Shown here piece after piece: positions 2,763 to 57,295 of a stretch of DNA of 64,000 nucleotides. A program made the position numbers and the translations under genes. The stretch covers positions 1 through 64,000 of the forward strand of contig JANWWF010000002.1 of NCBI GenBank assembly GCA_025055755.1. Reading direction: 5' to 3'. The DNA comes from Candidatus Kapaibacterium sp. GTDB taxonomy: Bacteria; Bacteroidota; Ignavibacteria; Kapaibacteriales; NICIL-2. How positions within the stretch are numbered: the first letter of the stretch is position 1; each line of letters begins with the position of its first letter. The notes under the pieces are model-generated. The model ran no database searches and had not been told where the DNA came from. It saw only the letters and a program-made list of their open reading frames with translations.

Positions 2763-5441
2763 CTATATTCCTGTGCGTGCCAGTTCAGGATGGCGTAGCC
2801 ATTTGTGGAGTTCTACCACTATCACTACACTCAATGCGACCGCAGTGCTCCGTAACCAGGCGTCCAATTCGATGGGCTCGACCCGTAGGATAAACTGCGT
2901 CGGGGGGAAGTACAGGGCTGCGATGTGTATCCCTAATGCTGCAAAAACCGCAACCAAGAGGAACTTGTTGCGAAAGGGGCTGAGCAAAAAGACGGAGCGA
3001 TATTCTGAACGTGCATTGCCCACATGGAAGTTTTGAAACAACACCAACGTCGTCAATGCAACAGTTTGTGCACGAGTCAGCGAATCTGTCAGCTCAAGCT
3101 CGTACCAGAAAAGCCATATCGTCGCTACCGCCATAAGCAGCCCCACCAGAGCAGTGCGCTCCCATAGCAGAGGGGAGATGATTCCTTCTCGTTGGCTTCG
3201 TGGAGGAAAGTCCAGAACTCTTTTGTCGCCTGGTTCGAATGCCATGGCGACATCTTGCAAGCCATTGGTAACCAAATTCAGCCACAGCAGTTGAGCAGGA
3301 ACCATCGGAAGAGGCAGCCCTGCCACTACTGCTATCAAAAACAGGAGAATCGAACCTGCACCCGTTGAAATGAGGAAAAAGGTCGCATTTCGCACGTTCT
3401 TGAAAGCTATCCGTCCTTCTTCGACTGCATTGCGAATGCTCACAAAGTTGTCATCAGCAAGCACGATGTCAGCAGCTTCTCGTGCAACGTCGGTACCGCT
3501 TTTCCCCATAGCGACTCCAACATCTGCAGCGCGGAGAGCAGGAGCATCATTGACTCCATCGCCGGTGACCGCAACGACCTGACCATTTGCTTTGAGTGCT
3601 TTGACAATGCGGAGCTTATGTTCCGGTGCAACACGGGCAAAAACGTTGACTGTGCGCACTGCTTGCGAAAGGGCTTCCTCACTCATTGTCTCAAGATCAG
3701 TGCCTGTAATGACGGGTGCTGTTGGAGTATCTGTGATGCCCAACTGGTGGGCAATCGAACGTGCGGTAGATGCGTGATCCCCAGTAATCATGATGACGCG
3801 GATACCAGCGCGGTGGCAATCGGCAATAGCTTCTTTGACACCTCGTCGGGGAGGATCCATCAAACCAACCAGCCCGAGGAATACAAGGTCGCGTGGCTCT
3901 GTATTAACCGCTGGAGTGGGAGAGTCCGGCAATGTTCGGTAGGCTAATCCCAGCACTCGCAATCCTCGCTCTGCCATAGCACTGATGCGCTGATGGATGT
4001 CCTGACGGTCTTTTTCGGTCAGTTGCTTGATGCCTTCTGGTGTTTGCCAATGGGTTGCGTGAGTAACAATTCGTTCTGGTGCTCCCTTAACAAAGTACCA
4101 TAGCTCGGTTCCTCGTTGCCGGATACTTGCGGAGTATTGCAATTGAGGTTCAAAGGGAACGTGTGCAACGACAGGATGGGTGTCCTGCCATTGTTTGTGG
4201 GAAAAGCCTGCTTTGAGTGCTGCCATCAGTAGAGCAATTTCTGTCGGATCGCCTTGAGTTTGATAGGTGCCATCGTCGAATGGTTCAACGCTTGCCTCAC
4301 TGGTGAGGACAGATGTCAACAACGCCAAAACAAACGGATGTTCATCCTCGCGGGGAATAGATCCGCGATCGAGCATGTCAATTGCATAGTGTTCTCCCGC
4401 AATCCAGTATTCGTGCACAGTCATGCGGTTTTCCGTGAGGGTTCCTGTTTTGTCTGAGCCAATGACCGTTGTACTCCCCAGCGTTTCTACAGCATGGAGG
4501 CGCCGCACAAGAGCATTGCGCTTTGCCATGGCGCTAACGCGGAGTGCTAACGTAATTGTCAGGACGATCGGTAGCCCTTCAGGAATAGAAGCAACTGCGA
4601 CACCTACCATGACCTTGAACATATCGGTTGGGGTATGCCCCACAAGGAGTCCTGCAAAGAAGGTCACCGTACATGCAATTCCGATGGCAATCCCGATGGC
4701 GTTCGCAAAACGCCGCATGCGTGCTTGAAGTGGAGTTTCGGTGACCTGTTCTGAACGCATGCTCAGGGCTATTTTGCCGAGCTCGGTCGCTGTGCCTGTT
4801 GCCACAACGTAGCCGCGACCTCGGCCAGACGCGACGATTGTCCCTGCATAGAGCATGTTTGTGCGGTCTGCCAAAGGCGTATGTTCTGGAACCGGGGCAA
4901 GTTGTTTATATACCGGTACCGATTCGCCAGTTAGAAGAGACTCATCCACTTGGAGTGCAGTAGCATGGAAAAGCCGAATGTCTGCCGGCACACGAACCCC
5001 TGATTCAAGCACAACGACATCGCCAACCACCAATTCTCTACTTTCAACAACCTGTTGCTTTCCCTCACGGATAACAGTTGCCTGGGGAGCAGTCAGCTGC
5101 ATCAATGCACGGACGGAACGCTCTGCGCGATATTCTTGAATGAACCCTATCGTAGCATTGATAATAAGCACTGCTGCGATAACGGCGCTGTCGATGTAAT
5201 CTCCCATTGCAAGCGTGACAACGCAGGCGGCAATGAGGATGTAAATGAGCGGACTGGTAAACTGATGGAGAATGATCGTCGAAAAGCGAATAGGCTCAAT
5301 CGGCTCAATTTCGTTGTAGCCATCCCGTGCAAGTCGCTGCCGCACAGCATCCCACGAGAGTCCATGTTCGGAGGTACCATAGAATGCAGCGACCTGTTCT
5401 ATGGTCTGTGCGTGAGGAGCGGAGAGAATTTGCTGGGTCAT
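2763..5441 (-). CDS. P2-type cation-transporting ATPase
   Basis: An 892-residue P-type ATPase that pumps cations across the inner membrane through a phospho-aspartate intermediate. It has an N-terminal cation-ATPase domain, TGES at 171-174 (actuator), PEGLP at 287-291 in transmembrane segment 4, the phosphorylated Asp330 in DKTGT, and a GDGVNDAP hinge near residue 625. About ten membrane segments can be recognised. PEGLP is the type IIA (SERCA/PMR1-like) signature, which suggests Ca2+. However, the helix-6 motif reads NLVTNGLQDVAMAFEP, where SERCA has Asp at NLVTD, so the transported ion is uncertain. The gene stands alone on the minus strand, 55 bp upstream of the next minus-strand gene. Confidence 0.9.
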   Translation of the reverse strand: MTQQILSAPHAQTIEQVAAFYGTSEHGLSWDAVRQRLARDGYNEIEPIEPIRFSTIILHQFTSPLIYILIAACVVTLAMGDYIDSAVIAAVLIINATIGFIQEYRAERSVRALMQLTAPQATVIREGKQQVVESRELVVGDVVVLESGVRVPADIRLFHATALQVDESLLTGESVPVYKQLAPVPEHTPLADRTNMLYAGTIVASGRGRGYVVATGTATELGKIALSMRSEQVTETPLQARMRRFANAIGIAIGIACTVTFFAGLLVGHTPTDMFKVMVGVAVASIPEGLPIVLTITLALRVSAMAKRNALVRRLHAVETLGSTTVIGSDKTGTLTENRMTVHEYWIAGEHYAIDMLDRGSIPREDEHPFVLALLTSVLTSEASVEPFDDGTYQTQGDPTEIALLMAALKAGFSHKQWQDTHPVVAHVPFEPQLQYSASIRQRGTELWYFVKGAPERIVTHATHWQTPEGIKQLTEKDRQDIHQRISAMAERGLRVLGLAYRTLPDSPTPAVNTEPRDLVFLGLVGLMDPPRRGVKEAIADCHRAGIRVIMITGDHASTARSIAHQLGITDTPTAPVITGTDLETMSEEALSQAVRTVNVFARVAPEHKLRIVKALKANGQVVAVTGDGVNDAPALRAADVGVAMGKSGTDVAREAADIVLADDNFVSIRNAVEEGRIAFKNVRNATFFLISTGAGSILLFLIAVVAGLPLPMVPAQLLWLNLVTNGLQDVAMAFEPGDKRVLDFPPRSQREGIISPLLWERTALVGLLMAVATIWLFWYELELTDSLTRAQTVALTTLVLFQNFHVGNARSEYRSVFLLSPFRNKFLLVAVFAALGIHIAALYFPPTQFILRVEPIELDAWLRSTAVALSVVIVVELHKWLRHPELARTGI

Positions 5442-5496
5442 CGCAGATCGTGCAGGTGGTGATGTCTTCGCATGGCTTCGACGATTATTCGTGACT

Positions 5497-7908
5497 TCAA
5501 AAACTATAACGGATGCCGAGCAAGACTTGGAGTCGTTCTATTGTCCAGGATGCATCGGTAAGAATGCTTCCGAGAGGATACGCGTACTGGGTCGAAAAAC
5601 ACAACGACCAGCGTGAGGAAAGCATTGGCAATGGAGCAAGAATACCGAATCCACCAAGTACTTCCGCTTGAAATGTCCGGAGAGAGGAAAGCGTTTGGTG
5701 GGTGCGCGAGGCAAATGGTGGTGGAGTGGGAATCGAAGAGGGTAAAACGAAGCGACGTTCCATGCTGACCGATTGTGATGGCTGCACCAGAGCCCGAATG
5801 CCACCGTGGAGATACAGCTCGTAGGTGTGAGTGTTGACACTTGCAGCGAGCGTGGTCCATTCCACACCGACGCCAACCGCGAATGCCGGTGTGGTTGGCA
5901 TCAAAAGTGTCTCTGCTTGGACGGTAATCAGTGAGTCATTGGGCAGGCGAAAGGAAGAGGTCAAGGAATCAGGGGCGGAAAGCGGGCGTCCGTAGGGTTC
6001 GACTGTGATGCGACCGTAAAGTCGCAGACGGTCTACCACTGCATGGGTTATCGCTGCACCAATACTCAATGCGGCACCATAAACGTTGCCTGTTGGTCGT
6101 TCGAAGGACATCCCTCCAGAAGCTTGAAATGCAGCAGTGTGGTAGAGGGCAGTAGCAATACCTGTTAGCTCGGCTTGCCACTGCCACTGGGGAGGACAGT
6201 AGCTTGCCTGAACAAATTCAAATCGGTGCTGTTTGGGATCGTAGCAGTAGGTATACGTTGCTGTTGCACGGTTGCCTGCAACATCGGAGAACACTAGCGT
6301 AAGCTGGCCATCCTGCTCTGGATCGAGCGGGTGCACGTCGAATTCGGCTTGAGGTTGTCCTCGTTCGATACGCGGCAAGTATGCGCGAAGGTTTTGAGCT
6401 GCTAAAACGATGATGCTGTCTAATCCTTGGTCGGCAGGGCGGTCGTCTCGCACAGTGACACGAAGTGCTTTGCCAGTACTTTTTAGCTGGAAAGTGCTTT
6501 GGGGCGGGATGCGATCCACAAGCGTATCAAGAATGAGGAAGGACTGCCCTCCCATAGTTCCATAGGCATCGTAGGCATCGTAGCGATAGCCGAAACCATA
6601 CGAATAGAGGCCAAATGGTTCATCACCTGTAATCATGTGGCTGCCATAATCGAGAGGAATCTGGGCGACAAAGTAGCTGGTGATTCCGATCCGTTCGAAA
6701 AGTGAGCGGGGAAGGGGACGACCGTCCACGCGAATGCTTCCAATTGCATCTTCCCGTGCCACGATGTTGACGTAGTGATCCCATGACCCCTGCACTGGCG
6801 TTGCAATGCGATACTGGCGAACAAATTGCTGAGTGGGGGAGATGAGAATCATCATTGGATCGCCGATTTGATCGCCGTTCCCATAACCTTGGGAATACTG
6901 AGCAATGAGAATGGGCTTATCGGCAGTGATTTGCACATGGTCGGTTGCATTAGGTTCTTCGTAGTACTCTCCGGCATTGAGTACAGCGATGAGGGTTTGG
7001 TTTCGGAAGACACGAGTGCCGTTTTCGGCAGCAAGAATCCGATAGGTGTACCGTGAGCGGCCACGCAATTTGCCTACGTAATAATGCTTACCCCACGCCC
7101 GAACAGGGGGCAATTGTTCGACCAAATGGTTGCACGCAGTAACACCAGGCGGCACATATGCGCAGGTGTGTCCGCTAAAGACAGCAATTGGTTTGGTTGA
7201 TTTGATGAGGGTACCTGTAAGGTCGCCAGTGCCACTTGCATAGAATTGGGCTCGTACTTGGTACACTTGCCCGCGATCCAAGGTGATTGAATATTGCTCG
7301 TATGCCCGATGCCCATCTGTTGTAGGGGTGGTGGGAGTAATGTCAATGCGGGTGTCGTCCTCTGTTGCAACAATTGCAAATTGTGGAGTAAGAGTGGCAG
7401 AAAGTTTACTGTAGCACATAGCACGGTACTCAGTACCAAGGACACTGGTGGGGAGGGCCAAGTACGTGTCGGTTGTTTGCACTCGATGGTTGAGTGCGTA
7501 AACCGCAATCGGAGCAGTGCTCTTGATATACAATGCGCGCATCTGCACTCGTGCAGAGGTATCCAGCTCTGCTTCTGGGGTTATGCGCACCGAGCGAATA
7601 GTGCCGGCAGGCACGTGCATGCGATGGCGAAAGGTAAGGCCACTAATTTCCATAGTGACATCGGCATCCTCTGCTGCAGTGATGAACACTTCCAATTGAG
7701 CAGGCTCGTAACTGCCAGGCTTGTTGGGATCTTGCTCTCGGAAGTTTTTCATAAAGCAGAGCCAAAATTCAGTGCCTTCCGAATTAATGGTGCGATAGCG
7801 TCCTTGGAGAGTGTCTGGAGGAGAAATAGCGAAACTTGCTGTTCCTGCAATCCATACCCAGCTAAGGATCCATACTACAACTGCGGTGCTCACTTGGCAA
7901 TCACGCAT
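5497..7908 (-). CDS. Exported IgGFc-binding-like protein with C-terminal barrel-like region
   Basis: An 803-residue exported protein with a signal peptide (about residues 1-27, ending TASFA). Residues ~35-450 form an IgGFc_binding-type beta-rich domain with GTEFWLCFM at the start, AVYALNH, QFAIVATEDDT and EQLPPV motifs. An Ig-like segment rich in Asp follows. The last ~230 residues have alternating hydrophobic strands and end in Phe (GIRYSF), as outer-membrane barrels do. It is clearly paralogous to the protein at 15854-18817, which ends instead in a T9SS sorting domain. The start overlaps the upstream gene by 19 nt; a GTG at 7893 is an alternative. Family members are secreted surface proteins of unknown ligand, so Fc binding should not be assumed. 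Confidence 0.75.
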   Translation of the reverse strand: MRDCQVSTAVVVWILSWVWIAGTASFAISPPDTLQGRYRTINSEGTEFWLCFMKNFREQDPNKPGSYEPAQLEVFITAAEDADVTMEISGLTFRHRMHVPAGTIRSVRITPEAELDTSARVQMRALYIKSTAPIAVYALNHRVQTTDTYLALPTSVLGTEYRAMCYSKLSATLTPQFAIVATEDDTRIDITPTTPTTDGHRAYEQYSITLDRGQVYQVRAQFYASGTGDLTGTLIKSTKPIAVFSGHTCAYVPPGVTACNHLVEQLPPVRAWGKHYYVGKLRGRSRYTYRILAAENGTRVFRNQTLIAVLNAGEYYEEPNATDHVQITADKPILIAQYSQGYGNGDQIGDPMMILISPTQQFVRQYRIATPVQGSWDHYVNIVAREDAIGSIRVDGRPLPRSLFERIGITSYFVAQIPLDYGSHMITGDEPFGLYSYGFGYRYDAYDAYGTMGGQSFLILDTLVDRIPPQSTFQLKSTGKALRVTVRDDRPADQGLDSIIVLAAQNLRAYLPRIERGQPQAEFDVHPLDPEQDGQLTLVFSDVAGNRATATYTYCYDPKQHRFEFVQASYCPPQWQWQAELTGIATALYHTAAFQASGGMSFERPTGNVYGAALSIGAAITHAVVDRLRLYGRITVEPYGRPLSAPDSLTSSFRLPNDSLITVQAETLLMPTTPAFAVGVGVEWTTLAASVNTHTYELYLHGGIRALVQPSQSVSMERRFVLPSSIPTPPPFASRTHQTLSSLRTFQAEVLGGFGILAPLPMLSSRWSLCFSTQYAYPLGSILTDASWTIERLQVLLGIRYSF

Positions 7909-8627
7909 GGTGTGATGAGAGCGTCATGCCGGGTAACCATACGAAGGTAATATACCCCGGCAGAGGTCGAGGATCGGTCAAAGCGGAGCTGTACTGTCTG
8001 AGGACCTGCCGCACGCGCATCCTGGCGCAAGCGTTGATATTCCCGACCCAGAGGATCATAAAGAACAAATTCAACGTCGGATTCTTCCGGTAGCCAGTAG
8101 GTGACCGTCAGGAGCTCCCCATAAAGTGGCTGTGGGCTCAACGGACCCAAAGAAGGTGCACGCTGAAGCTGTAGAGGTTCCGGAGGAACAAGCGTAAGCT
8201 GTCCACCCTGGCTTACAACAGTCAGAACTGCCCCATTCTGCTCAATGCTGCGAACTGATAGCGCTGCTGGAGATATGCCGCTCCATAGCACCCGGCACCA
8301 AAGGAGGAACTCAAGTTTCGAGAGCGATTGAGGTACTGTGACCCTGAGGGTAGCAAAACCAGTGTCAGTAGTGGGTAAGTTATCGAGGATAATTTCAACA
8401 TTGCCTTGCCCAGTTGGGAACATTCCTGCGACCTTTTCAATCGAAAGCGCTGCGCGTGAGTATGTGATAACTATTTTAGCATCTGCAGTGGATTCGATGT
8501 CGGCTATGAGTGAAATAGGTACAATCACGACTTCCCCTCGGAGGACGGTCGTATCGGGTAAAACAGCACGGGGCTGTGCATGGGAAAGTGTCAATACTGC
8601 ACTTGCCAGTGCTAACAATAATCGCAT
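7890..8627 (-). CDS. Small secreted protein with T9SS sorting domain
   Basis: A 245-residue secreted protein. Residues 1-18 are a signal peptide (MRLLLALASAVLTLSHAQ). The next ~120 residues form a beta-sandwich-like region resembling cohesin-type modules (VITYSRAALSIEKV). The C-terminal ~75 residues match a type IX secretion sorting domain: LTVTYWLPEESDVEFVLYD, then YDPLGRE, GPQTVQL and AGVYYLRM. T9SS cargo crosses the outer membrane and is usually anchored to surface LPS. The gene is translationally overlapped by the large IgGFc-like gene, so the two are probably one operon from the promoter at 8661-8668. No specific function can be given. Confidence 0.75.
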   Translation of the reverse strand: MRLLLALASAVLTLSHAQPRAVLPDTTVLRGEVVIVPISLIADIESTADAKIVITYSRAALSIEKVAGMFPTGQGNVEIILDNLPTTDTGFATLRVTVPQSLSKLEFLLWCRVLWSGISPAALSVRSIEQNGAVLTVVSQGGQLTLVPPEPLQLQRAPSLGPLSPQPLYGELLTVTYWLPEESDVEFVLYDPLGREYQRLRQDARAAGPQTVQLRFDRSSTSAGVYYLRMVTRHDALITPCVIAK

Positions 8628-8660
8628 CAGCTCAGCCCATCAATGCGACATAGTAGCGGG

Positions 8661-8668
8661 CAAAAATA
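8661..8668 (-). promoter_or_regulatory. Candidate -7 element TATTTTTG
   Basis: On the minus strand this reads TATTTTTG, matching the Bacteroidota TAnnTTTG element. It lies 33 nt upstream of the start at 8627. No clear TTTG -33 box was seen. Confidence 0.5.
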
Positions 8669-8676
8669 CGCCCTCT

Positions 8677-10341
8677 GTGATAGGTGCCCGTACTTCTTGC
8701 TTCAGACACGGGCCCGAGAAACTTTATGCATTGCTCAATTTGGTGGTATGGTGGATGCTCTTTACTGGTCAGCTATCTGCCCAAGCAATTCGTCTCAGCG
8801 GGTCGGTTGGAACCACAGCAGAACTTTACCGAGCATATGGTAATCCCGCACGCCTGCCATCAGAGACGTACCGTGCAGTCGCCCGGCTGAATGTGAGTTT
8901 GTTCAATCAGATCGAATTACCGTTGGAGCTTTTTCTCAATAGTGGTCAGGTAGGTTTCCAGCAGCCATTCAATCAAGTTGGAATTACTCCACGGGTGGGG
9001 GATTGGCTTCAACTTTTCGGCGGGTGGTACTCTACTAGCGTCTCTGACCTTACTTTTGGTGACTTACGCATTCTTGGCGGAGGGGTAGAATTGATGCCGG
9101 GTAATTTCCGGCTTGCGGTACACTATGGTTATACTCGCCTCGGGCGCGAACCCGATCCTTCTATTGGGTTTTTTGGAGAATATCGGCGTCGGGTTATTCT
9201 TGGTAAGCTTGGTTTTGAAACACCAGAGGGAACCTTTATCACACTTCAAGCAATGACCTCGCAGGATGAAGCCGGTACAATCCGCCGTGATAGCTTAACT
9301 GCATCTCCCCAGGCAAATGCAGTTCTGTCGGTAGCTGGAGGAGCCAGCATTGCAAACGGTGCTGTGCGTATTCGAGGAGAGCTTGCAGCAGGGCTTCTTA
9401 CTAATAACCTGCAGGCAGGTATTGATAGCGCTCTTGCTGAGAATATTCCTGCCCTTCTCCAGCAGATTATCCCGATAAACGCGACATCGAACATAGATGG
9501 CGCTGCGCGACTGAACATTGCAATAGCACCAAGCACATCGTGGGGCCTATCACTCGATGGTCAATGGATAGGTCCTGGCTTTGTTTCTCTTGGTTTTGCC
9601 CAGCTACTCAATGACATTCTTGATCTTTCTGCCTCCCCCTTTGTCCGCATGCTGGAGGGGAAGCTATTACTTCGGGCGACGGTCAGCCGCCGTTCTAACA
9701 ACTTGCGTAAGACTCGAATAGCAACAATTGAGCGATGGATGACTAATGGAGGACTAACCTGGCAGATTAGCGATGCTGTTAGCCTTGATGTACAAGTGGG
9801 TCAATACACCATGACCTCAGACCACCAGAACGATACGCTCCGAGCAGATAACAAAACCCAGACGCTGAGCTTTACTCCAAATTGGCGCTTCCAGGTCTCT
9901 GGTCAGGACCACTTCCTGATCGCATCAGCAAGTATTCAGCGGACCATTGATGGGAATATCCTGAGTGGCCGGTATGGAAATAATTCCTCGCTAAATCTCA
10001 CCCTCTCGCATGCGACTCAATTCCCCTCGCGGCTTGGGATAAACACATCACTAAGCTATAGCCATACCGAGACATTTTTGCAAAGCCTTCGATTTGCCAC
10101 TCTGAGTGAGTCTTTGAATTATCCGCTTACAGAGCGTCTCGGGCTTCGAACGACTATTGGTATCAACACTACAACAGCGACCCGCACAACCCTCCAGCTA
10201 TTTTTCCGTGGCACGCTAAGCTACTCTCTGGAACAGTGGGGAACTCTAACATTCCAGCTGATGAATAATGCTTTTGATATGACAACCGATAACCGTTACA
10301 CTGAACTTTTCGCAAGTCTGCAATACACGGTGAACTTATAA
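8677..10341 (+). CDS. Putative outer-membrane beta-barrel protein
   Basis: An exported protein of about 554 residues whose body alternates hydrophobic and polar residues (NFRLAVHYGYTRLG, TLSFTPNWRFQV, GTLTFQLMNNAFDM) and closes with FASLQYTVNL, a pattern of outer-membrane barrel strands. I do not recognise a named family. The frame is open further upstream, antisense to the neighbouring gene, so the start must be chosen. The GTG at 8677 gives a signal peptide with Arg/Lys before the hydrophobic core and a GQLSAQA cleavage region. TTG 8731 and ATG 8755 are alternatives that lack basic residues. It is divergent from the T9SS cargo gene and sits inside a cell-surface cluster. Confidence 0.6.
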   Translation: MIGARTSCFRHGPEKLYALLNLVVWWMLFTGQLSAQAIRLSGSVGTTAELYRAYGNPARLPSETYRAVARLNVSLFNQIELPLELFLNSGQVGFQQPFNQVGITPRVGDWLQLFGGWYSTSVSDLTFGDLRILGGGVELMPGNFRLAVHYGYTRLGREPDPSIGFFGEYRRRVILGKLGFETPEGTFITLQAMTSQDEAGTIRRDSLTASPQANAVLSVAGGASIANGAVRIRGELAAGLLTNNLQAGIDSALAENIPALLQQIIPINATSNIDGAARLNIAIAPSTSWGLSLDGQWIGPGFVSLGFAQLLNDILDLSASPFVRMLEGKLLLRATVSRRSNNLRKTRIATIERWMTNGGLTWQISDAVSLDVQVGQYTMTSDHQNDTLRADNKTQTLSFTPNWRFQVSGQDHFLIASASIQRTIDGNILSGRYGNNSSLNLTLSHATQFPSRLGINTSLSYSHTETFLQSLRFATLSESLNYPLTERLGLRTTIGINTTTATRTTLQLFFRGTLSYSLEQWGTLTFQLMNNAFDMTTDNRYTELFASLQYTVNL

Positions 10342-10456
10342 GCACAGTCTGAAAACGGTAGGGTGCTTTTTGCAGGGAAAGGAAAAGGGATGCAGCACAT
10401 TTGGTACGTGGGTGAGTATGGAAAGCGTGTCATTAATCTCTTTACGCGATCTCATG

Positions 10457-10504
10457 CGTTAAGCAGGGAGTAGTTACGATCGTTAAGCAGGGAGTAGTTA
10501 CGAT
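10457..10504. repeat. Perfect 24-bp tandem duplication
   Basis: Two identical, directly abutting 24-bp units (10457-10480 and 10481-10504), each starting CGTTAAGCAGGG and ending GTAGTTACGAT. Their junction makes the 8-bp palindrome ACGATCGT. No third copy was seen in the window. It could be a duplicated operator half or a simple replication-slippage duplication. Confidence 0.9.
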
Positions 10505-10614
10505 TCTCCTTTGTCTTCTCAGCTAAAAGCTTCGATATCTCCAATGACTATGGCGGCTTCGAACATCCAGTGCTTTCAGCAATGCGCCTAATATCACGGG
10601 TGCTTTTCATGCTG

Positions 10615-10631
10615 TTAACATTTTGGTAACA
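10615..10631 (+). promoter_or_regulatory. Spaced direct repeat TTAACA-N5-GTAACA
   Basis: Two near-identical hexamers, TTAACA and GTAACA, lie 11 bp apart start to start, one helical turn, immediately upstream of the TonB receptor gene. OmpR/PhoB-family regulators bind hexamer repeats at this spacing (for example the Bacillus PhoP box). Assignment to a phosphate-type regulator is speculative. Confidence 0.25.
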
Positions 10632-10682
10632 CACCTACAATACTTGCCTAAACTGCTCAGGGGAGTTTTGCGCTCGGTCTGT

Positions 10683-13577
10683 GTGTGGTTGGTTTCACGT
10701 TTACACCGCTTTCTTATGCTTGTTTCAATACTCGTGTGTGTGGTTATTTGTAGCTCTCTCTCATACAGTGCAGAAGAAGTGGGAGCTATCTCTGGTAAGG
10801 TGCGAGAAGCTGCAACAGGCGAAGCTCTCCGCGGCGCAACCATAATCTTGGATGGGACGAAGAAAGGCGCGATTAGCGATCCAAAGGGCAATTTCACTAT
10901 CAAAAACGTACCTGCGGGGAAGTATTCGCTCACAGTGCGATATGTTGGGTACGAAACGAAGCGCATAACAAATGTGGTCGTTGAGCCGGGAAAAACAACG
11001 ATTGTCTCAATTGTATTAGACCGAGACCGGCAAGTCATTGCGCGAGATGTGGTTGTTGAGGCAAGGCGCACAACAGAAACGCAGGCTGCAATATTGGCGC
11101 AACGAAAAAATAGTGCCCAAGTCAGCGACGGAGTAAGTATTGAGGAGATCAAAAAACTTCCTGATAATGATGCAGGGCAGGCTCTTCGTCGTGTTTCAGG
11201 GGTTACCCTAGCAAACGACAAGTACATCGTTGTCCGTGGCACCAGTGATCGCTACAACAACGCCATGCTCAACGGCGTGGCACTGACATCAACAGAGCCC
11301 GATAAGAAGGCATTTACGTACGACCTTTTTCCAAGCGAACTTCTCGAAAGTGCAACGATCGCAAAGACATTTACACCGGATTTACCGGGGAATTTTACTG
11401 GTGGTATGGTTCAGCTAAACACAATAGAATTTCCCTCGCAATCTTCAGTGAAAATCAGTTTTGGTTCCTCGGTCAATGATAATGCATTTCTTCAACGCGA
11501 TCGTTTTATCAGCTCTCCTGGGGGAAGGTACGATTGGATCGGTTTTGATGATGGTAGCCGGACCCGCATGCCAGAAGGCATGCCGAAAAATCGGCGAGAA
11601 ATGAGTGCTCTCCTGAGCGCGGTGCGCAATCCGTATGACACAACTGGAGCACGTCAACGATGGACACAAATCGGGCGAACCTTCAACAACCAAAATTGGC
11701 AGCGAACTCAAAGGACTCTGGTAACTCCAAATAGTTCCCTATCCATTGCATATTCTGATGTTGCTTCGCTGGGGGGGATGGAATTGGGGATTGTTGCCAG
11801 TTTAGTGTACTCCAACTCATGGGGAATTGCCACTATTGAGCGAAATGGTATCCTGGCGGACCGATCAAAATGGTTTGATACAAGGGGATACAATCCCACT
11901 CGAACAACAAATCTCGGTGGTATGCTCAATCTTGCAGTCCGTCCAAGTAGTGCCACCACCTTATCTCTACGGACAGTTTTTAGCCACAGTGCAGATGAAG
12001 ACGTTGTTGTGCTTAATGGACAAGATTACGTGCGGATTTTCGACACCAAGCAGCTTTCGATGCAGTACGTTGAAAAAACATTGATTTCATCAGTGCTTGG
12101 CGGTGAGCACACGCTTGCAGAGTTCTTCAATGCTGCGCTTGATTGGAAAGTGGGGTATTCATATTCAGGGCGAAATGAGCCAGATTTCCGCAGGTTCCGC
12201 TTTGCACGACAGACTCCCTCACCTGGTGACTCATATATCGAACCCTTTACCTCTGACATCATAAGTTTTACCCCCTTAGGCCAGGGGGATGGTGTGCGTG
12301 CAGGCCGGTTTTTTTCTACTCTTGACGAGCATGGATATAGTGGCTCTTTCAATCTGCTCATTCCAATCAATGCAATTAAACTCAAAACAGGATTCTTGAC
12401 CGAGCATCGCAGTCGACGCTTTTCCGCACGGTCGTTTACCTACGTTCCTGGCCCGGAGTTTAGTTTAGACTACAGCGTGTTTACCCTGCCAGACTCGGTG
12501 CAGTGGGCTGATCCATCGAGAATATTCCAGCCTGCCCATTTCGGACCCCAAGGAATTGGAGTCTCGGAAGATTCCCGCTTAGCAGATGCATACGACGCAG
12601 GGGAACGGCTTTATGCAGGGTACATTATGGCAGATTGGTCGCTCGATGAGATGGGCATTCCCATCCGAGTTATTGGGGGAGTGCGGTATGAGGACAACCG
12701 GCAGACCCTTAGTAGTTACGATCTAAGCGACCGTCCTGTCAACGTTGACTTGCGGACGGGAGACCTCCTACCAGCACTATCCCTTGTGTTCAAGCTTACC
12801 CCAGCGATGAATCTGCGGGTTGCAGCATCGCAAACGTTGGCACGTCCGGCGCTACGAGAATTTGCGCCGTTTGCATTCTACGACTTTTCCACGCAGTCCC
12901 AAGTGATGGGGAACCCCAACCTGACGCGTGCCCTTATTACTAATGGCGACATTCGGTGGGAGTGGTTCCCCGCGCCAGGAGAAGTACTATCTGCAGGTGT
13001 GTTCTACAAGCGCTTCCTTCATGCAATAGAGGAGACCATTTATCTCGAACAACAAGAAATTGCGCGCACATTTCGAAATGCTGAAGGACCTGCCCACAAT
13101 TATGGGCTTGAGCTGGAGCTCCGCAAGCGACTTGATATCCTGGGTGAGTGGGGAGAAAATGTTACGGTTTCTTTCAACTACGCACGTATTTTCTCAGAAA
13201 TTGCTGTAGCGCAAGGAGGGCAAATTGATCGCCGCCCGATGTGGGGGCAGTCCCCCTTTACCTTCAATGCAGTGGTATTGGCCGCAATACCGGCGTGGGA
13301 TGCAACTTTCAGTATCGGCTACAACGTCTTCGGGCGGCGTATCGTCCTTGTTGGGCTTCGGAATGCTTATTTGTTCGAAGATCCCCATACCTATGAACTT
13401 CCCCGTGATGTGATAGACATAACTGCAACGAAACGCTTCGGTGACTTTGAACTCCGCATTTCAATTCGTGACCTGCTTAACCAGCCTCTTCGGTGGGAGC
13501 AGGGCAATACTGTTGTTCAGTCCACCATACGTGGACGTTCCATAGGTGTTGGATTAAGCTACCGTCTTGGTCAGTAA
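10683..13577 (+). CDS. TonB-dependent receptor with carboxypeptidase-regulatory domain
   Basis: A TonB-dependent outer-membrane receptor of about 964 residues. After the signal peptide comes a carboxypeptidase-regulatory-like domain (GAISGKVREAATGEALRGA, then PKGNFTIKNVPAGKYSL and VRYVGYE). The plug domain follows (LPDNDAGQALRRVSGV, VVRGTSDRYNNAMLNG), and then a long 22-strand-type barrel ending GVGLSYRLGQ. Such receptors import a ligand with TonB/ExbBD energy; the ligand here is unknown. The frame is open from a TTG at 10623, which would overlap the candidate operator. The GTG at 10683 gives basic residues before the hydrophobic core, and ATG 10716 is also possible. The next gene, encoding a T9SS-sorted protein, starts 29 nt downstream and is probably a partner. 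Confidence 0.88.
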   Translation: MWLVSRLHRFLMLVSILVCVVICSSLSYSAEEVGAISGKVREAATGEALRGATIILDGTKKGAISDPKGNFTIKNVPAGKYSLTVRYVGYETKRITNVVVEPGKTTIVSIVLDRDRQVIARDVVVEARRTTETQAAILAQRKNSAQVSDGVSIEEIKKLPDNDAGQALRRVSGVTLANDKYIVVRGTSDRYNNAMLNGVALTSTEPDKKAFTYDLFPSELLESATIAKTFTPDLPGNFTGGMVQLNTIEFPSQSSVKISFGSSVNDNAFLQRDRFISSPGGRYDWIGFDDGSRTRMPEGMPKNRREMSALLSAVRNPYDTTGARQRWTQIGRTFNNQNWQRTQRTLVTPNSSLSIAYSDVASLGGMELGIVASLVYSNSWGIATIERNGILADRSKWFDTRGYNPTRTTNLGGMLNLAVRPSSATTLSLRTVFSHSADEDVVVLNGQDYVRIFDTKQLSMQYVEKTLISSVLGGEHTLAEFFNAALDWKVGYSYSGRNEPDFRRFRFARQTPSPGDSYIEPFTSDIISFTPLGQGDGVRAGRFFSTLDEHGYSGSFNLLIPINAIKLKTGFLTEHRSRRFSARSFTYVPGPEFSLDYSVFTLPDSVQWADPSRIFQPAHFGPQGIGVSEDSRLADAYDAGERLYAGYIMADWSLDEMGIPIRVIGGVRYEDNRQTLSSYDLSDRPVNVDLRTGDLLPALSLVFKLTPAMNLRVAASQTLARPALREFAPFAFYDFSTQSQVMGNPNLTRALITNGDIRWEWFPAPGEVLSAGVFYKRFLHAIEETIYLEQQEIARTFRNAEGPAHNYGLELELRKRLDILGEWGENVTVSFNYARIFSEIAVAQGGQIDRRPMWGQSPFTFNAVVLAAIPAWDATFSIGYNVFGRRIVLVGLRNAYLFEDPHTYELPRDVIDITATKRFGDFELRISIRDLLNQPLRWEQGNTVVQSTIRGRSIGVGLSYRLGQ

Positions 13578-13606
13578 ATGTTGTCCCACTACTTGTGTGT
13601 ACTCCT

Positions 13607-15631
13607 ATGCACCGTTTGTTGATAGTTCTTGTCACTGTGGTTGCGACGGTCGCATGGTCGCAATCGATTAGCGTTCGTCTTGTTCGTCCGGCAGGGGGTG
13701 AAGTCTTTCGCCCTGGGATGTCGGAAGATCTCGTTTGGGACGCATCAGCGTATCCGGGTGTCTTTCCAACCTGGCGATTCCAATTTGCAACATCGCCAAG
13801 TGGACCGTGGACCGATTTGCCCGGTGCAACTGCTGTGAAAGACTCCGCCGCACGCCGTGGTCAATTCTTGGGTGGTTTCCGCGTGCCAGCTATTCCGACG
13901 ACAACCGGCTATGTCCGTATGGTGTTGGTAAAGCCTGATGGCAGCCTTGACGAGTCGGTAACCAGCCGCAATCAGCAACCCTTCACAATCGTTCAACCAC
14001 AGCCGATACGTATTGATTCTGTTCTCCGTACACCAATCACTACCCGCGTGCAATTGAGTGCCCGCAAGGTTTATGGGCTCGATGGTTATGTGTTCGTTGA
14101 TGACGGGGGGGTACTCGTTATAGAACCAGGTACACGCATTGTGGGCGATACCGTCGGACAGAACTCAGCTCTTTGTGTCAATCGGGGTGGGAAAATTATA
14201 GCAGCAGGCACGCGAACGCGACCAATCATTATGACGTCATCGGCACCTCCAGGGCAGCGGGCATCAGGGGACTGGGGTGGATTACTTATCTGCGGACGTG
14301 CACGGACAAATCATCCAGGGGGACAAGCGGCGCTCGAGGGTGGTATCGCCGATGCAAACCAAGTGCGGGGGTGGTTTGGAGGAACCGATGACGACGACTC
14401 AAGCGGGGTTGTCCGATACGTGCGAATCGAATTTGCTGGTATTGCGGCCGCACCGAATAGCGAATTGAACTCGCTGACGATGGGAGGTGTCGGACGCCGC
14501 ACGATCATTGAATATGTGCAATGCAGCTACGGCAACGATGACTCATTCGAGTGGTTCGGCGGTACGGTCAATGGTAGGTACCTAATCTCGACTGGCTGTC
14601 TTGATGATGATTTCGACACAGATAATGGATGGAGCGGACGAGTGCAGTTTGCTGTTGCGCAGCGATTCCGTGCGCGTGCCGACCAATCCATTTCACAGGC
14701 ATTTGAATCCGATAATGATGCCAGTGGTTCGTTCAATCGTCCGCTAACTAGTGGTGTGTTTTCGAATGTTACGGTAATTGGTCCCCTGCAGGATACATCG
14801 TGGACAGCAGGGACAGGTACGACACCGAATACATATAACAGCCGCTTCGGTGCAGCAGCGCAAATACGCCGCAACTCACGGCAAAGTATTATCAACAGTG
14901 TGTTCATAGGTTGGCCACGGGGAGTGGAAATTGCAGGGAGTAATACAATGGCCGCTGCATTCGGGGATTCATTGCTTTTGCGAAACAACACGTTCTACGG
15001 CATTAAGGGAACATGGCTCAACTTTGCTGGTGGTACTCCTCCTTCAGGAATGACTACCAGTTGGATCGAGCAGCCGCAGTTTAACAACATTATCAATCGT
15101 GCTTCTCCTGCACTGGCGCAGCTTATCAATCCGTTTGCAACCGATGTGAGTTTCAACCCTCAGCCGACAGAGGAATCGCCGCTTGCACTGCAAGGTACAA
15201 CCTTTTTGAGCACACCACTTGTTGACCTTAGCGCGTTCCAGCAGGTTAGCTATCGTGGTGCTTTCGCCCCATTCCCAGCAGAGCGGTGGGACCTGCCTTG
15301 GGCTGAGTATGACCCAGTCAATGCAGACTACACTCTTTCGGCAGATGATGCCTCTAATGATGTAATTCCGTTGTCAGTGGAAGTACTGCCTAATCCTGTA
15401 AACGATGCTGCAGTTATCCGTTATTCGTTGCCCGAAGACGACCGCGTCTCGCTAAGTGTCTTCGATGTACAAGGGAGAGAAGTTGTTCGCTATCTAACGC
15501 TTCACCCGCATCATGCGAGTATCTACGAAGTGCCTATTTCTGCGCAGTGGCTCACCAGTGGAACCTACTTTGCTCGTTTGACTACCGAGCGGAATGGTAC
15601 TGTAACTGTTCCGATTGTGATTGTGCGCTAA
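13607..15631 (+). CDS. T9SS-sorted beta-helix-like surface protein
   Basis: A 674-residue secreted protein with a signal peptide (MHRLLIVLVTVVATVAWSQS). An N-terminal Ig-like region (LVRPAGGEVFRPGMSEDLVW) is followed by a repetitive Gly/Asp-rich core of parallel-beta-helix character (VLVIEPGTRIVGD, GDWGGLLICGRA, RYVRIEFAGI, FEWFGGTVNGRYL). The C-terminal ~85 residues are a T9SS type A sorting domain (VEVLPNPVNDAAVIRYSLP, VFDVQGREV, SGTYFARL). The ATG at 13607 is preferred because upstream codons overlap the receptor gene and lack a signal. Proteins of this type commonly sit just downstream of a TonB receptor in Bacteroidota, suggesting a surface capture partner. Ligand unknown. Confidence 0.8.
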   Translation: MHRLLIVLVTVVATVAWSQSISVRLVRPAGGEVFRPGMSEDLVWDASAYPGVFPTWRFQFATSPSGPWTDLPGATAVKDSAARRGQFLGGFRVPAIPTTTGYVRMVLVKPDGSLDESVTSRNQQPFTIVQPQPIRIDSVLRTPITTRVQLSARKVYGLDGYVFVDDGGVLVIEPGTRIVGDTVGQNSALCVNRGGKIIAAGTRTRPIIMTSSAPPGQRASGDWGGLLICGRARTNHPGGQAALEGGIADANQVRGWFGGTDDDDSSGVVRYVRIEFAGIAAAPNSELNSLTMGGVGRRTIIEYVQCSYGNDDSFEWFGGTVNGRYLISTGCLDDDFDTDNGWSGRVQFAVAQRFRARADQSISQAFESDNDASGSFNRPLTSGVFSNVTVIGPLQDTSWTAGTGTTPNTYNSRFGAAAQIRRNSRQSIINSVFIGWPRGVEIAGSNTMAAAFGDSLLLRNNTFYGIKGTWLNFAGGTPPSGMTTSWIEQPQFNNIINRASPALAQLINPFATDVSFNPQPTEESPLALQGTTFLSTPLVDLSAFQQVSYRGAFAPFPAERWDLPWAEYDPVNADYTLSADDASNDVIPLSVEVLPNPVNDAAVIRYSLPEDDRVSLSVFDVQGREVVRYLTLHPHHASIYEVPISAQWLTSGTYFARLTTERNGTVTVPIVIVR

Positions 15632-15686
15632 TCGTAAGGTCGCGACCCTAACAATCTCCGCCGAGCGGAGAACCACACACACGCAG

Positions 15687-15710
15687 CAGGGCGTCCAGAG
15701 GGACGCCCTG
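15687..15710 (+). terminator. Strong hairpin terminator
   Basis: A perfect 10-bp GC-rich stem (CAGGGCGTCC / GGACGCCCTG) with a 4-nt AGAG loop, followed by TTGTTGTTCC. It lies 55 nt after the T9SS protein stop and fits an intrinsic terminator for the receptor operon. Confidence 0.8.
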
Positions 15711-15811
15711 TTGTTGTTCCTCTTGAACGCATACTATTTACTACCTGCCATACACATAACGAGAAAAATGGCAAGAGAAACGATTTATTGGAAAGCTGTG
15801 TTTCTACGTTG

Positions 15812-15819
15812 TACTTTTG
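15812..15819 (+). promoter_or_regulatory. Candidate -7 element TACTTTTG
   Basis: TACTTTTG fits TAnnTTTG, 34 nt before the start at 15854. A TTG lies 21 nt upstream as a weak -33 candidate. It follows the terminator at 15687-15710, so a new transcript is expected here. Confidence 0.55.
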
Positions 15820-15853
15820 TTCGGAAAAATCCACCGTAGGCAAGGAGGTGGCA

Positions 15854-18817
15854 ATGAAATTGGCACTCGCTGTGCTTATTCTGCTTCCGCTGGTGCTCCC
15901 TGCTCAAGAGTTGCCAGATAGCAAGGGGACGGATTTTTGGTTCTGCTTTATGCCAAATTACCATAATAATGGTTATGATAACCCAGCAGGAAATGACCAA
16001 GATTCGTTGTTTGTATTTGTTGCAGCTTCTAAGCCTACCAATGTAGCTCTTCGTTTTACACCTCACGATGGCCGTCCTCCCCAAGAACTTCGGGCTCGTA
16101 TTGAGGACCCACGTGATATGCTGATATTCAAAATGTCCTATTATGGGGTTGAGCTCAAGGGGATTACCGCAGGAGGTTACTACTATGGAGCTACTCAACG
16201 CCACACTCAACGTCCTGTTCCTTATTCTCTGCACCTGACAAGCGATGAGGAAGTGACCGTTTATGCCCTCAACCATGCGGAGAAAACAAGCGATGCCTTT
16301 TTGGTTCTTCCCACTGACGCGTTGGGAAAAGACTACTACATTGTAAGCTACAATACCGATGTTTATGCAGACGGAGCAAACACTCCCTCGCAATTTGCGA
16401 TTGTTGCGACTGAAGACTCGACCGTGGTAGAATTTGTTCGAATTACTGCGCCAACGACTGATGGCCCTGTCAATCGAGTTTTGCTCCGTCAGGGTGAGGT
16501 TTACTTAGTGCAGGCAAACATTTTTGATGAACGGAACGATCTGACGGGCACACGGATTAAGTCCAATCGTCCAATAGCTGTTTTTGCTGGGCATCAGCGA
16601 GTTCGTGTGCCTCTTCAAAGCAGGGATCGTGCATCGTCACGAGATTGCCTAATTGAACAGCTACCGCCAATTAATACGTGGGGACGTTCTGCACTCTTGG
16701 TCAATTTCCCAGATCCACCCGACGAGCTGCGATTAGGACCTGATCGCTTCCGGATTATAGCAGCCAGAGATAGCACAGTGATCTATCGAGACAGTGTGCC
16801 ACTTGTAACTCTCCAGGCAGGGCAGTACTATGAAGCAGATCTCATTTCTCCGCACTCAATTCATGCTAACCGTCCGATACTTGTAGGAGTTTTTCGCCAT
16901 ACCTCGAGCCCCACTTCCATGGGCAACACCCTGCTTTTGGGAGACCCTTTCCTGATGATTATACCTCCGACGGAACAGTTTCAAAGCAGCTACCGATTCA
17001 TTTGTCCTCGTCTCTACGAAGATTCTGTTCTCTCTTCCCGTCGGACCGTTAAGACAGAAGTGTACAAGTATCACTATGTGGCAATTGTTGCTCCAGACAC
17101 GGCATTAGCCACGATCAATCTTGATGGCAGAATGGTGCCTGCGAGTAGTTTCCGCCCAATCCCGAAAAGTAGGTACTTTTACACCTGGGTGCGCATCGAT
17201 GCAGGGGTCCATACTATTAGTGCAAGTGCACCAATTGGCATTTACGTGTTTGGTTACGGCTATGCGGACTCATATGGATATGTGGGAGGAATGAGCTACC
17301 GTCGCTATGACTTTGATCCGCCTGTGTTATCTACTCTCTCTCCCTGTCCTCCCTATCGCCTTGTCGTTTACGATACGTTACCGGGTGACAGTCGGGTAGA
17401 TGTTGTCCGTATTATTGAGGATTCGACGCGGAATCTGGCCTGGAAAGTTGTGCGCTCATCGCTGCTGCCGCAGGATTCAATAGTTCTTGAGCTTTCCCTG
17501 CTTGATCCATATGAAGATGGAATGCTAACCCTTATAGCTCAGGATGCTGAACAATTTACCACACGTGCACAGTTGGTTGTGCCGGGTGTAACGTTGCGAG
17601 TGACGAACACCCAAGGAATATCCCAACGACCTCCTGTTCACTTTCGCTATCGAAGTGCAACCCAACGCAGCTCGTGCTTCCCATTGACGATCACCAATGT
17701 CGGTAAGCTGCCTCAAACAATCCTCAGAGCATTCACCCGTGAAGGAATAATTACCAGCAAAGCACTCCCAGCAGTGGTGGTCCCACGCGATACTATTAGC
17801 CTACGGGTATGCTATCGAACAGAACAAACTCAAGTGATTACAGACACGCTTTGGATCCAAACTCCATGCACTACAATTGTCGCTGCGACATTCACGATCG
17901 AATTCATTGTAGATACCGCTGCGCCTCGTATTCAACGAAACACCATTGACTGTCCCGGTGTGCACGTGCTTACTATTGCGGAGCAGGGCTACACAGAAAC
18001 GGGCATTGCATCTATCGCCGTTGTTGATTCGTTCAATGTTGTCATTCGTCTTGGGAATAACTCAGAGACCTATGCCGATCCGGCAGAAGTACAATACCTT
18101 AACATCTCACACCGTGATTGGCGGCTCGATGGCTGGTATCGAATCCAAGTGACTGATTCTTCGGGGAATATAAGTACGATTGCAGGCACCTTCGAGGGGC
18201 ATACCGTTATGATTGTCAACCGCGACTCTCTCAGTCCTACGCAGCAATTCGTCGGTTACAGCGGGCAATTCTTCTGCGACACAGTGGAGCTCTACAACTT
18301 TGGGAGATATCCGAAGGTATTCGACCGCATTACTGCGCGCGGTGTGGAGTTCTCAATTCCTCCCTCCTACATGCCATTAACTCTCGCACCGGGAGAACGC
18401 GTCCGTGTTCCTATTTGTGCATTTCTTCCTCCCTACGACAGCCGTGGTGAAAATATGTATGCCGACACATTCGCATTAGTGGTTGGTTGCTACGAGCGAC
18501 GAATGCCAATTACCATTCGTGTGCAAGCAGTAACATATCAGGCAAATAGTTCCTGCGATGTTCATATCGTAAGTAGTGCTCTGCGTGATAGCGTACGAGT
18601 AGAGCAGGTTGCCAGTGGCATTCGTGGTGAATTTGCTCATCCGACAAGTGGAAGTCTGGAGCTGTACACTCTTACTGGCAGACGTGTCCACATGGAGCAT
18701 TTCAATGATGCGGCATTTAGCCTGAATTTCGATGGGCTGCCACGTGGTACATACTGGCTTATCATCCGCACCTCCAATGGAGTTATAACACTACCACTGC
18801 TGTGGATAGGAAACTAA
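15854..18817 (+). CDS. Exported IgGFc-binding-like protein with T9SS sorting domain
   Basis: A 987-residue exported protein. A signal peptide (MKLALAVLILLPLVLPAQ) leads into an IgGFc_binding-type domain with GTDFWFCFM, VYALNHAEKTSD, QFAIVATEDST, NDLTGTRIKS and EQLPPINTWG, closely matching the paralogue at 5497-7908. Several Ig-like/choice-of-anchor-like beta domains follow, with paired Cys (PLTITNVGKLPQTILRAF, FCDTVELYNFGRYPKVFD). The last ~65 residues form a T9SS sorting domain (SGSLELYTLTGRRV, LPRGTYWLIIRT). The start is fixed by AAGGAGGTGG, an excellent Shine-Dalgarno 5 nt before ATG, unusual in this window and suggesting strong translation. Role: secreted surface protein, ligand unknown. 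Confidence 0.82.
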   Translation: MKLALAVLILLPLVLPAQELPDSKGTDFWFCFMPNYHNNGYDNPAGNDQDSLFVFVAASKPTNVALRFTPHDGRPPQELRARIEDPRDMLIFKMSYYGVELKGITAGGYYYGATQRHTQRPVPYSLHLTSDEEVTVYALNHAEKTSDAFLVLPTDALGKDYYIVSYNTDVYADGANTPSQFAIVATEDSTVVEFVRITAPTTDGPVNRVLLRQGEVYLVQANIFDERNDLTGTRIKSNRPIAVFAGHQRVRVPLQSRDRASSRDCLIEQLPPINTWGRSALLVNFPDPPDELRLGPDRFRIIAARDSTVIYRDSVPLVTLQAGQYYEADLISPHSIHANRPILVGVFRHTSSPTSMGNTLLLGDPFLMIIPPTEQFQSSYRFICPRLYEDSVLSSRRTVKTEVYKYHYVAIVAPDTALATINLDGRMVPASSFRPIPKSRYFYTWVRIDAGVHTISASAPIGIYVFGYGYADSYGYVGGMSYRRYDFDPPVLSTLSPCPPYRLVVYDTLPGDSRVDVVRIIEDSTRNLAWKVVRSSLLPQDSIVLELSLLDPYEDGMLTLIAQDAEQFTTRAQLVVPGVTLRVTNTQGISQRPPVHFRYRSATQRSSCFPLTITNVGKLPQTILRAFTREGIITSKALPAVVVPRDTISLRVCYRTEQTQVITDTLWIQTPCTTIVAATFTIEFIVDTAAPRIQRNTIDCPGVHVLTIAEQGYTETGIASIAVVDSFNVVIRLGNNSETYADPAEVQYLNISHRDWRLDGWYRIQVTDSSGNISTIAGTFEGHTVMIVNRDSLSPTQQFVGYSGQFFCDTVELYNFGRYPKVFDRITARGVEFSIPPSYMPLTLAPGERVRVPICAFLPPYDSRGENMYADTFALVVGCYERRMPITIRVQAVTYQANSSCDVHIVSSALRDSVRVEQVASGIRGEFAHPTSGSLELYTLTGRRVHMEHFNDAAFSLNFDGLPRGTYWLIIRTSNGVITLPLLWIGN

Positions 18818-18822
18818 TTTTG
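18815..18822 (+). promoter_or_regulatory. Candidate -7 element TAATTTTG
   Basis: TAATTTTG fits TAnnTTTG, 32 nt before the transaldolase ATG at 18855, and overlaps the stop codon of the previous gene. Confidence 0.45.
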
Positions 18823-18854
18823 TGGCATGTAAAACAAAGCACATGGTGGTGGGC

Positions 18855-19520
18855 ATGCAACTATTCATTGATTCAGCCAACATAAGCGAGATTCAGCAAG
18901 TAGCGGCACTAGGCATTATCAGCGGTGTAACCACAAATCCCAGTCTGCTGGCAAAGGAAGATCCCTCTACACCGGTGGAAAAAATCATTGCTTCGATTCA
19001 CGAGATTGTCGGTGGGCATATCTCTGTGGAGGTGGTGTCAACCGATACAGAGGGCATGATACGGGAAGCGGAAGAGATACTCTCGTGGTTGCCCGAGGCA
19101 ACTATCAAAATCCCTATGACTGCTGCAGGGTTATCAGCAGTGTATGAACTGAGTCGTCGAGAAATACCAACAAATGTGACACTTGTATTTTCTCCAACCC
19201 AGGCATTGGCGGCTGCCAATGCAGGTGCCCGCTACGTGAGTATCTTTTTGGGACGGCTCGACGATATTGGACAAGATGGGGTGGGAGTCCTGCGCCAAGT
19301 TATGGAAATTTGGGATGTCCAGGGGCTTGAGGCAGAAATCATTGCAGCATCTATTCGGCACCCGATGCATATTGTCGAAGCAGCGCGCGCAGGAGCACCC
19401 ATTGCAACAGTCCCATACAAAGTACTTATGCAATCGCTCAAGCATCCATTGACGGATGCGGGACTGGAGGCATTCCTTCGCGATGCGGCCAAGTGGCATA
19501 AACAGTCAGTGACAGCCTAA
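18855..19520 (+). CDS. tal: Transaldolase (TalC/MipB-type)
   Basis: A 221-residue small transaldolase of the TalC / fructose-6-phosphate-aldolase subfamily, cytosolic and probably serving the non-oxidative pentose phosphate pathway. The start MQLFIDSANISEIQ, then GVTTNPSLLAKE near residue 28 and TIKIPMT with the Schiff-base lysine near residue 88, are diagnostic. The fold finishes with IATVPYKVL. An upstream GTG (18822) would add 11 residues absent from homologues, so ATG 18855 is chosen. Whether it acts as transaldolase or F6P aldolase cannot be told from sequence alone. Its stop overlaps the next start (TAATG). Confidence 0.88.
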   Translation: MQLFIDSANISEIQQVAALGIISGVTTNPSLLAKEDPSTPVEKIIASIHEIVGGHISVEVVSTDTEGMIREAEEILSWLPEATIKIPMTAAGLSAVYELSRREIPTNVTLVFSPTQALAAANAGARYVSIFLGRLDDIGQDGVGVLRQVMEIWDVQGLEAEIIAASIRHPMHIVEAARAGAPIATVPYKVLMQSLKHPLTDAGLEAFLRDAAKWHKQSVTA

Positions 19521-56936: not shown

Positions 56937-57292
56937 CAGAATCAACGCGTATTCTCATCGGTATCGTTGCAGGTTTTGTTCTTAGTGCTGCAAACATTGG
57001 AGCGGGATTGTTGGTTGCACGGCGTGCTCAGCAGTTGCCCGTCAATAAAGCAACTACGCTGGTGCTCTCGGCAATGGCGGTACGGTTGATCGTTATGGTT
57101 GTGCTTATTGGCACACTTGTCAGTACCGTCGAACTCAACAAGGTCGCATTTGCCTTAACGCTCATGTTCTCATTTTTTGCAATGGTGGTGCTTGAAGCTT
57201 TTTTTTTACACGCTCAACACGAAAAAGCTAAAGTACCACTGGTTCGTCGCCACCACTATCGGCGGCCACGTGTACCGTTTACTGTATGGTAA
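56933..57292 (+). CDS. atpI: ATP synthase subunit I-like membrane protein
   Basis: A 119-residue protein with about four membrane helices (ILIGIVAGFVLSAANIGAGLL, TLVLSAMAVRLIVMVVLIGTL, VAFALTLMFSFFAMVVLEA). It is placed between AtpZ and AtpB and resembles subunit I of F-type ATPases, a c-ring assembly helper. The frame is open upstream but antigenic to atpZ codons; the TTG at 56933 overlaps the atpZ stop (TTGA) and is the best coupled start. AtpI is poorly conserved, so the name rests partly on position. Confidence 0.65.
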   Translation: MTESTRILIGIVAGFVLSAANIGAGLLVARRAQQLPVNKATTLVLSAMAVRLIVMVVLIGTLVSTVELNKVAFALTLMFSFFAMVVLEAFFLHAQHEKAKVPLVRRHHYRRPRVPFTVW

Positions 57293-57295
57293 CAC

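Follow-up and report, generated by a model that had tools for sequence, protein, structure and literature searches.

A TonB receptor and its secreted β-helix partner in Candidatus Kapabacteria belong to a probable Pho-regulon gene pair conserved across Bacteroidota

The closest described systems come from Flavobacterium and Caulobacter. In Flavobacterium johnsoniae the TonB-dependent receptor (TBDT) Fjoh_0545 and the lipoprotein FII, Fjoh_0546, which carries the pectin-lyase-fold entry IPR011050, are encoded in the phoBR operon and are strongly induced by Pi depletion (tabulated fold changes, 8.0 and 9.9) but not when N or Fe is depleted, with plant cell-wall targets proposed by Lidbury and co-workers (PMC8115612). 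The FI/FII lipoproteins resemble a Caulobacter lipoprotein (PMC8115612), which is ElpS (Cc0170). ElpS is made in phosphate starvation and its gene adjoins that of the TonB receptor Cc0171 together with T2SS genes; Cc0171 was reported as constitutive, no change in phosphate uptake was measured, and the co-occurrence of elpS and receptor genes across genomes was remarked upon (PMC2996285). According to a 2024 study, the PhoB regulon of Caulobacter includes its T2SS and several TonB receptors (PMC11208175). The outer-membrane receptors of Bacteroidota phosphate starvation are known so far from few proteomes.

The window analyzed here is a 64,000-nucleotide stretch of DNA from a Candidatus Kapabacteria metagenome-assembled genome (MAG; 2.33-Mb assembly, 99% complete), with the Candidatus Kapabacteria MAGs KatS3mg040 and KatS3mg039 being its closest named relatives. 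The initial annotation of the window recognized a 13-kb island of six exported-protein and receptor genes and read it as one surface recognition or uptake system for which no described counterpart could be named. All six genes are real, with open frames at or close to the places it gave them, and a scan of positions 5000–19500 against Rfam identifies no elements. For two of the genes, those of the receptor and of an adjacent β-helix protein (termed unit C), a described system does exist, namely the pairs outlined above.

The receptor is encoded on the plus strand at 10716–13577 in a frame open from 10623, and Pfam and NCBIfam searches define it as a TonB-dependent receptor with an N-terminal CarbopepD_reg-like domain, the TonB plug, barrel and CarbopepD_reg_2 domains all being matched by Pfam within 10623–13577. 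Translation probably starts at ATG 10716, because the alternative TTG at 10623 falls within the Pho-box-like site described below. Receptor orthologues are present in 54 of 61 relatives (E ≤ 1e-20), and the window genome has no close paralogue. A search of named organisms returns mostly distant TonB receptors besides three Kapabacteria/Chlorobiota MAGs. Membership of the SusC/RagA family and of SusCD/PUL systems is ruled out by the score against the SusC model TIGR04056 (55 bits, cut-off 368) and by the neighboring gene product, in which Pfam finds no SusD domain.

The partner gene (plus strand, 13607–15631, in a frame open from 13493) probably starts at ATG 13607, 29 bp past the receptor stop codon, and encodes a secreted protein with a signal peptide, an Ig-like domain, a right-handed β-helix and a T9SS sorting domain. 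The sorting domain scores above the TIGR04183 cut-off (35.6 bits), bearing out the initial description of the 13493–15631 frame as a T9SS β-helix-like protein. The AlphaFold2 model (mean pLDDT 81.7) shows the Ig-like domain, the right-handed β-helix and the T9SS domain, and Foldseek returns only weak matches to tailspike and glucanase structures (best E 6.6e-4). By sequence no solved homologue of the β-helix body is found, the matches being confined to T9SS tails and immunoglobulin domains. Seven acidic residues (Glu-324, Asp-349, Asp-350, Glu-353, Asp-371, Asp-372 and Asp-375) are identical in 49/49 aligned β-helix sequences ranging from Kapabacteria to proteobacteria. The conserved groups are spaced about one helix turn apart and so may line one face of the β-helix. 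This invariant cluster suggests a cation-dependent site, which would hold a phosphate group; the cation would be needed as a bridge, since bare phosphate would otherwise be repelled by an acidic face.

The route by which the partner reaches the cell surface differs among relatives. The window genome encodes the T9SS translocon SprA (672 bits for the main segment), so that a T9SS is likely present and T9SS export of the β-helix protein is plausible. Lipobox-like cysteines are visible by eye in the Parabacteroides, Sphingomonas and Indioceanicola proteins, and the window protein has the T9SS sorting domain in place of such a lipoprotein anchor. Because T9SS-tailed and tail-less relatives both adjoin the same receptor across the phylum, we judge the anchor to be a variable export route and not a defining feature of the pair. 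In several families of the order (L076, L092, L084 and their relatives) two to four β-helix units are fused in tandem within the β-helix gene, whose product then has about 1,300–2,300 amino acids.

The pairing itself is strongly conserved. Within the Kapabacteria order the 30 receptor and 30 β-helix loci are neighbors everywhere except in one rearranged genome (G028), with intergenic gaps of −134 to +372 bp over all same-strand pairs parsed. Among 218 Bacteroidota genomes drawn, 143 have a match to the β-helix profile and 139 to the receptor profile. Where both matches are listed for a genome outside the order (90 genomes), the two genes lie within 3 kb of each other in 85; all 85 of these pairs are on the same strand and the receptor comes first in 75. 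The suggestion of a receptor with a capture protein thus holds across the phylum. The receptor profile built from the order also scores well with Parabacteroides (691 bits), Indioceanicola (420 bits) and Sphingomonas (379 bits), compared with no more than 87 bits for paralogues in their own genomes. The plasmid records of Sphingomonas parapaucimobilis and Indioceanicola profundi contain an ElpS-like β-helix gene, the receptor gene and T2SS genes in the Caulobacter arrangement, and both β-helix proteins match the β-helix profile. Judged by these profile scores, the window receptor falls in the receptor subfamily of the Pho-regulon TBDT/β-helix pairs of the FII/ElpS type, and like those receptors it is accompanied by an adjacent secreted β-helix protein. 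Through gene order and published descriptions, including the Sphingomonas/Indioceanicola arrangement, the pair resembles those of ElpS and Fjoh_0546. It most likely adds a Kapabacteria member to a Pho-regulon pair that is known but still uncharacterized.

Alignment of the region upstream of the receptor in five genomes of the genus brings out a conserved stretch of non-coding DNA in which two GTAAC-like repeats are spaced 11 bp apart. In the window this is the direct repeat TTAACA-N5-GTAACA on the plus strand at 10615–10631 (TTAACATTTTGGTAACA). PhoB-family boxes are direct repeats with an 11-bp period, and the receptor repeat fits such a box because it has the same form. Having come to attention within the genus, the repeat was then tested in wider sets, with the core and the period scanned over several values and a match defined as 7 of the 8 positions of TAAC-N7-TAAC. 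It occurs upstream of the receptor in 28/30 loci of the order (93%) and 36/39 loci of the phylum (92%), compared with 11 and 17%, respectively, of control genes; other spacings give 15–31%, and only the 11-bp period is enriched. With stricter controls, limited to genes behind at least 150 bp of non-coding DNA, the order gives 27/29 receptor upstreams against 20/86 (23%), for which the Fisher p value of 1.7e-11 overstates the result because related genomes are not independent. The phylum set, which is more independent than that of the order, gives 36/39 against 31/107 (29%; Fisher 2.1e-12). A matrix derived solely from the phylum set (other Bacteroidota) places the receptor site at the top of the window with 23.2 bits, the next score being 16.2. 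The strict pattern KTAACAN5KTAACA has two occurrences in the 2.33-Mb genome, the second of which (C48:145851) runs against the two forward genes on either side of it and is taken as chance. Read from its sequence, the 10615–10631 repeat has the character of a Pho-type promoter site at which PhoB would be expected to bind.

A matrix trained on the order is enriched upstream of pstS genes, with 47% above the 95th control percentile (p 1e-9), and the pstS upstreams of the order (L189–L218) often contain TGTTAC-N6-GTAACA, an inverted form of the receptor repeat; the pstS upstream of the window genome itself has only a weak site. Three further elements were observed in the window. The second-best matrix match (57274–57300, 16.2 bits) lies directly before the atpB-like gene of the ATP synthase operon. 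A short leader (10655–10690, AGGGGAGTTTYGCA...GTGTGTGGTTG) separates the Pho-box-like site from the start of the receptor gene and looks non-coding because its conservation in the five genomes of the genus includes an indel, and it matches no Rfam family. A unit of ~24 bp (GTTAAGCAGGGAGTAGTTACGAT) is present twice in tandem at 10458–10505, between the barrel and receptor genes.

The genes surrounding the pair in other genomes also point to phosphate. Of 40 phylum loci picked for family spread before their neighbors were known, about 11 have, in the vicinity of the receptor pair, PstS, PstC/A, PstB, PhoU or a PhoBR-like pair, singly or in combination; representatives of PstS, the permease, PhoU, the response regulator and the kinase were checked with Pfam, the last two being called PhoBR from context only. 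PstS adjoins the receptor pair in two Kapabacteria families (G016 and G059), and in the sister-genus genome G007 the polyphosphate kinase and Ppx genes (ppk-ppx) are convergent to it. Ppx/GppA recurs near the pair in family f2, where common ancestry of the related loci may account for its presence. Phosphate is thus the indicated nutrient for the pair, and it was already among the limitation conditions listed in the initial annotation.

Taken together, it is likely that the receptor and β-helix genes form a PhoB-controlled outer-membrane system that captures and imports phosphate or a phosphate compound. The gene pairing, homology, repeat and pst/pho neighborhood are computed here and induction by Pi starvation is taken from the relatives, and from these we infer PhoB binding, the cation site, the substrate and transport. 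At low phosphate a PhoB-type regulator would bind the 11-bp-phased repeat at 10615–10631 and turn on the two-gene operon. The β-helix protein would leave the cell via the type IX system, and its invariant acidic face, which probably binds a cation, would capture or process a substrate that contains phosphate; the receptor would then draw phosphate or a phosphate compound across the outer membrane, energized by TonB. A more tentative proposal, which we regard as possible but less likely than not, is that the β-helix protein depends on a cation to capture phosphate or phosphoesters at the surface, or to act as a phosphatase, with a fold that is not known to serve this function. Its product would be passed to a TonB-driven importer dedicated to phosphate, which would be the principal route of phosphorus uptake through the outer membrane across Bacteroidota.

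The pair could instead import a carbohydrate or polysaccharide fragment, with Pho control reflecting phosphorylated glycans or cell-wall phosphorus. β-Helix folds are common among pectinases, the fold here resembles tailspike and glucanase structures, and plant cell-wall targets were suggested for the Flavobacterium pair (PMC8115612). The structural resemblance is weak, however, as the Foldseek E value indicates, no SusD partner or CAZyme is recognized among the conserved neighbors, and the genes that recur near the pair are Pho genes and not sugar genes, which makes a carbohydrate substrate unlikely.

The remaining genes of the island were read in the initial annotation as partners of the receptor, with the IgGFc proteins catching a ligand for it. 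PF17517 scores above its cut-off in both flanking genes, placing them in the IgGFc_binding family by sequence. The first (minus strand, 5497–7908, 284 bits) also has an Ig-like domain and, in place of a T9SS tail, a C-terminal OmpA-like β-barrel. Its model (pLDDT 83.5) ends in this barrel, for which OmpA barrels are the best Foldseek matches (E 7e-7), and the predicted protein is therefore probably membrane-anchored rather than exported by the T9SS. Directly upstream is a gene for a small exported protein (minus strand, 7890–8627), annotated as T9SS cargo, whose sorting domain is weak (TIGR04183 15.0 bits, below the cut-off of 23 bits). A relative of this gene occupies the same position in 21/24 loci across the order, and the two form an order-wide pair (unit A) that is separate from the receptor system. 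A conserved gene of ~224 amino acids follows the IgGFc-barrel gene in about 11/26 loci (L169–L188) and is absent there in the window.

The exported barrel candidate (unit B; plus strand, 8338–10341, conserved from about 8750) has no Pfam or NCBIfam match. Elsewhere it is normally followed by genes of ~2,425 and ~700 amino acids, both missing from the window locus; in other genomes of the order these are exemplified by L057:7282–14643 (2,453 amino acids) and L057:14654–16756 (700 amino acids), which belong to no Pfam family. Relatives of the large gene in the window genome are all partial and lie at other places. The second IgGFc_binding protein (unit D; plus strand, 15788/15854–18817), correctly recognized as such, scores 219 bits with PF17517 and 25.0 bits with TIGR04183 and is a T9SS cargo. 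Synteny shows that it adjoins the receptor pair in the window's genus only. IgGFc domains number 3–25 per genome in 61/61 genomes, and their genes pair with other partners elsewhere.

Comparison of gene order in up to 61 relatives separates these units. The order IgGFc1, cargo, barrel ... receptor, β-helix, IgGFc2 is kept in G002, G003, G004, G005 and the window, five genomes of the same genus, and the six-gene neighborhood is found only there. In three of G002–G005, genes of ~1,800–2,450 and ~700–830 amino acids are inserted between the barrel and receptor genes, and the window and G005 are without both. The sister genera G006 and G007 carry the IgGFc1/cargo/barrel/large-gene block on a different contig from the receptor pair, and the stretches read in G011 and G043 contain the barrel and large genes but no IgGFc1. 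The separation in sister genera, the inserted genes and the multi-copy nature of the IgGFc family mean that the juxtaposition of the six genes is specific to the lineage. The Pho-box-like site, moreover, is not common to the units and belongs to the receptor operon only, no good site being found upstream of the IgGFc, cargo or barrel genes of the window. Set against this, the order kept in five genomes leaves a single surface system highly improbable, and that reading is rejected on synteny. The conserved co-occurrence sought in relatives is therefore found for the receptor/β-helix pair, whereas the six-gene set is scattered. The island is a genus-level juxtaposition of separable, independent surface gene units, and the IgGFc and barrel genes around the receptor pair are independent surface genes. 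Least probable of all is uptake of a metal such as calcium or iron merely co-regulated with phosphate genes, for which the invariant acidic cluster and the many TonB receptors that carry metal complexes would speak, but no metal-transport or Fur-type neighbor is identified and the Flavobacterium pair responds to Pi and not Fe limitation (PMC8115612).

The phosphate reading of the receptor operon has several consequences. The neighborhood and the conserved promoter repeat tie the receptor/β-helix pair to the Pho response phylum-wide, the pair now includes a Kapabacteria form that differs in its export route, and the invariant residues are named for mutation, so that the substrate question becomes directly testable in Flavobacterium. 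The repeat is also offered as a candidate Pho-box consensus for the phylum, none having been found described in the open papers searched.

Compared with Fjoh_0545/Fjoh_0546 (PUSIV) and Fjoh_3857/3856 (PUSIII), the window pair has in common a CarbopepD_reg-like (pf13715) and plug-containing receptor with a pectin-lyase-fold exoprotein. The Flavobacterium exoprotein is a lipoprotein, whereas that of the window has an Ig-like domain and a T9SS tail. Pho context is also shared, and relatives with the Flavobacterium layout occur among the sampled genomes (L138, with the order β-helix, receptor, PhoB-like, PhoR-like), although the window pair is not itself beside phoBR. With Caulobacter ElpS/Cc0171 it shares a secreted protein beside a TonB receptor and the link to phosphate starvation, and relatives with the Caulobacter gene order score with the window profiles; the Caulobacter protein differs in being a lipoprotein released by a T2SS-dependent step, and its genes are in reversed order beside T2SS genes. 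The SusCD/PusCD outer-membrane systems are alike in combining a TonB receptor with a dedicated surface protein, but the window pair is without a SusD-family protein and its receptor is far below the SusC cut-off. Among IgGFc_binding (PF17517) surface proteins, both flanking genes have the domain in common, and the 5497–7908 protein differs in that an OmpA-like barrel, and not a T9SS tail, probably anchors it.
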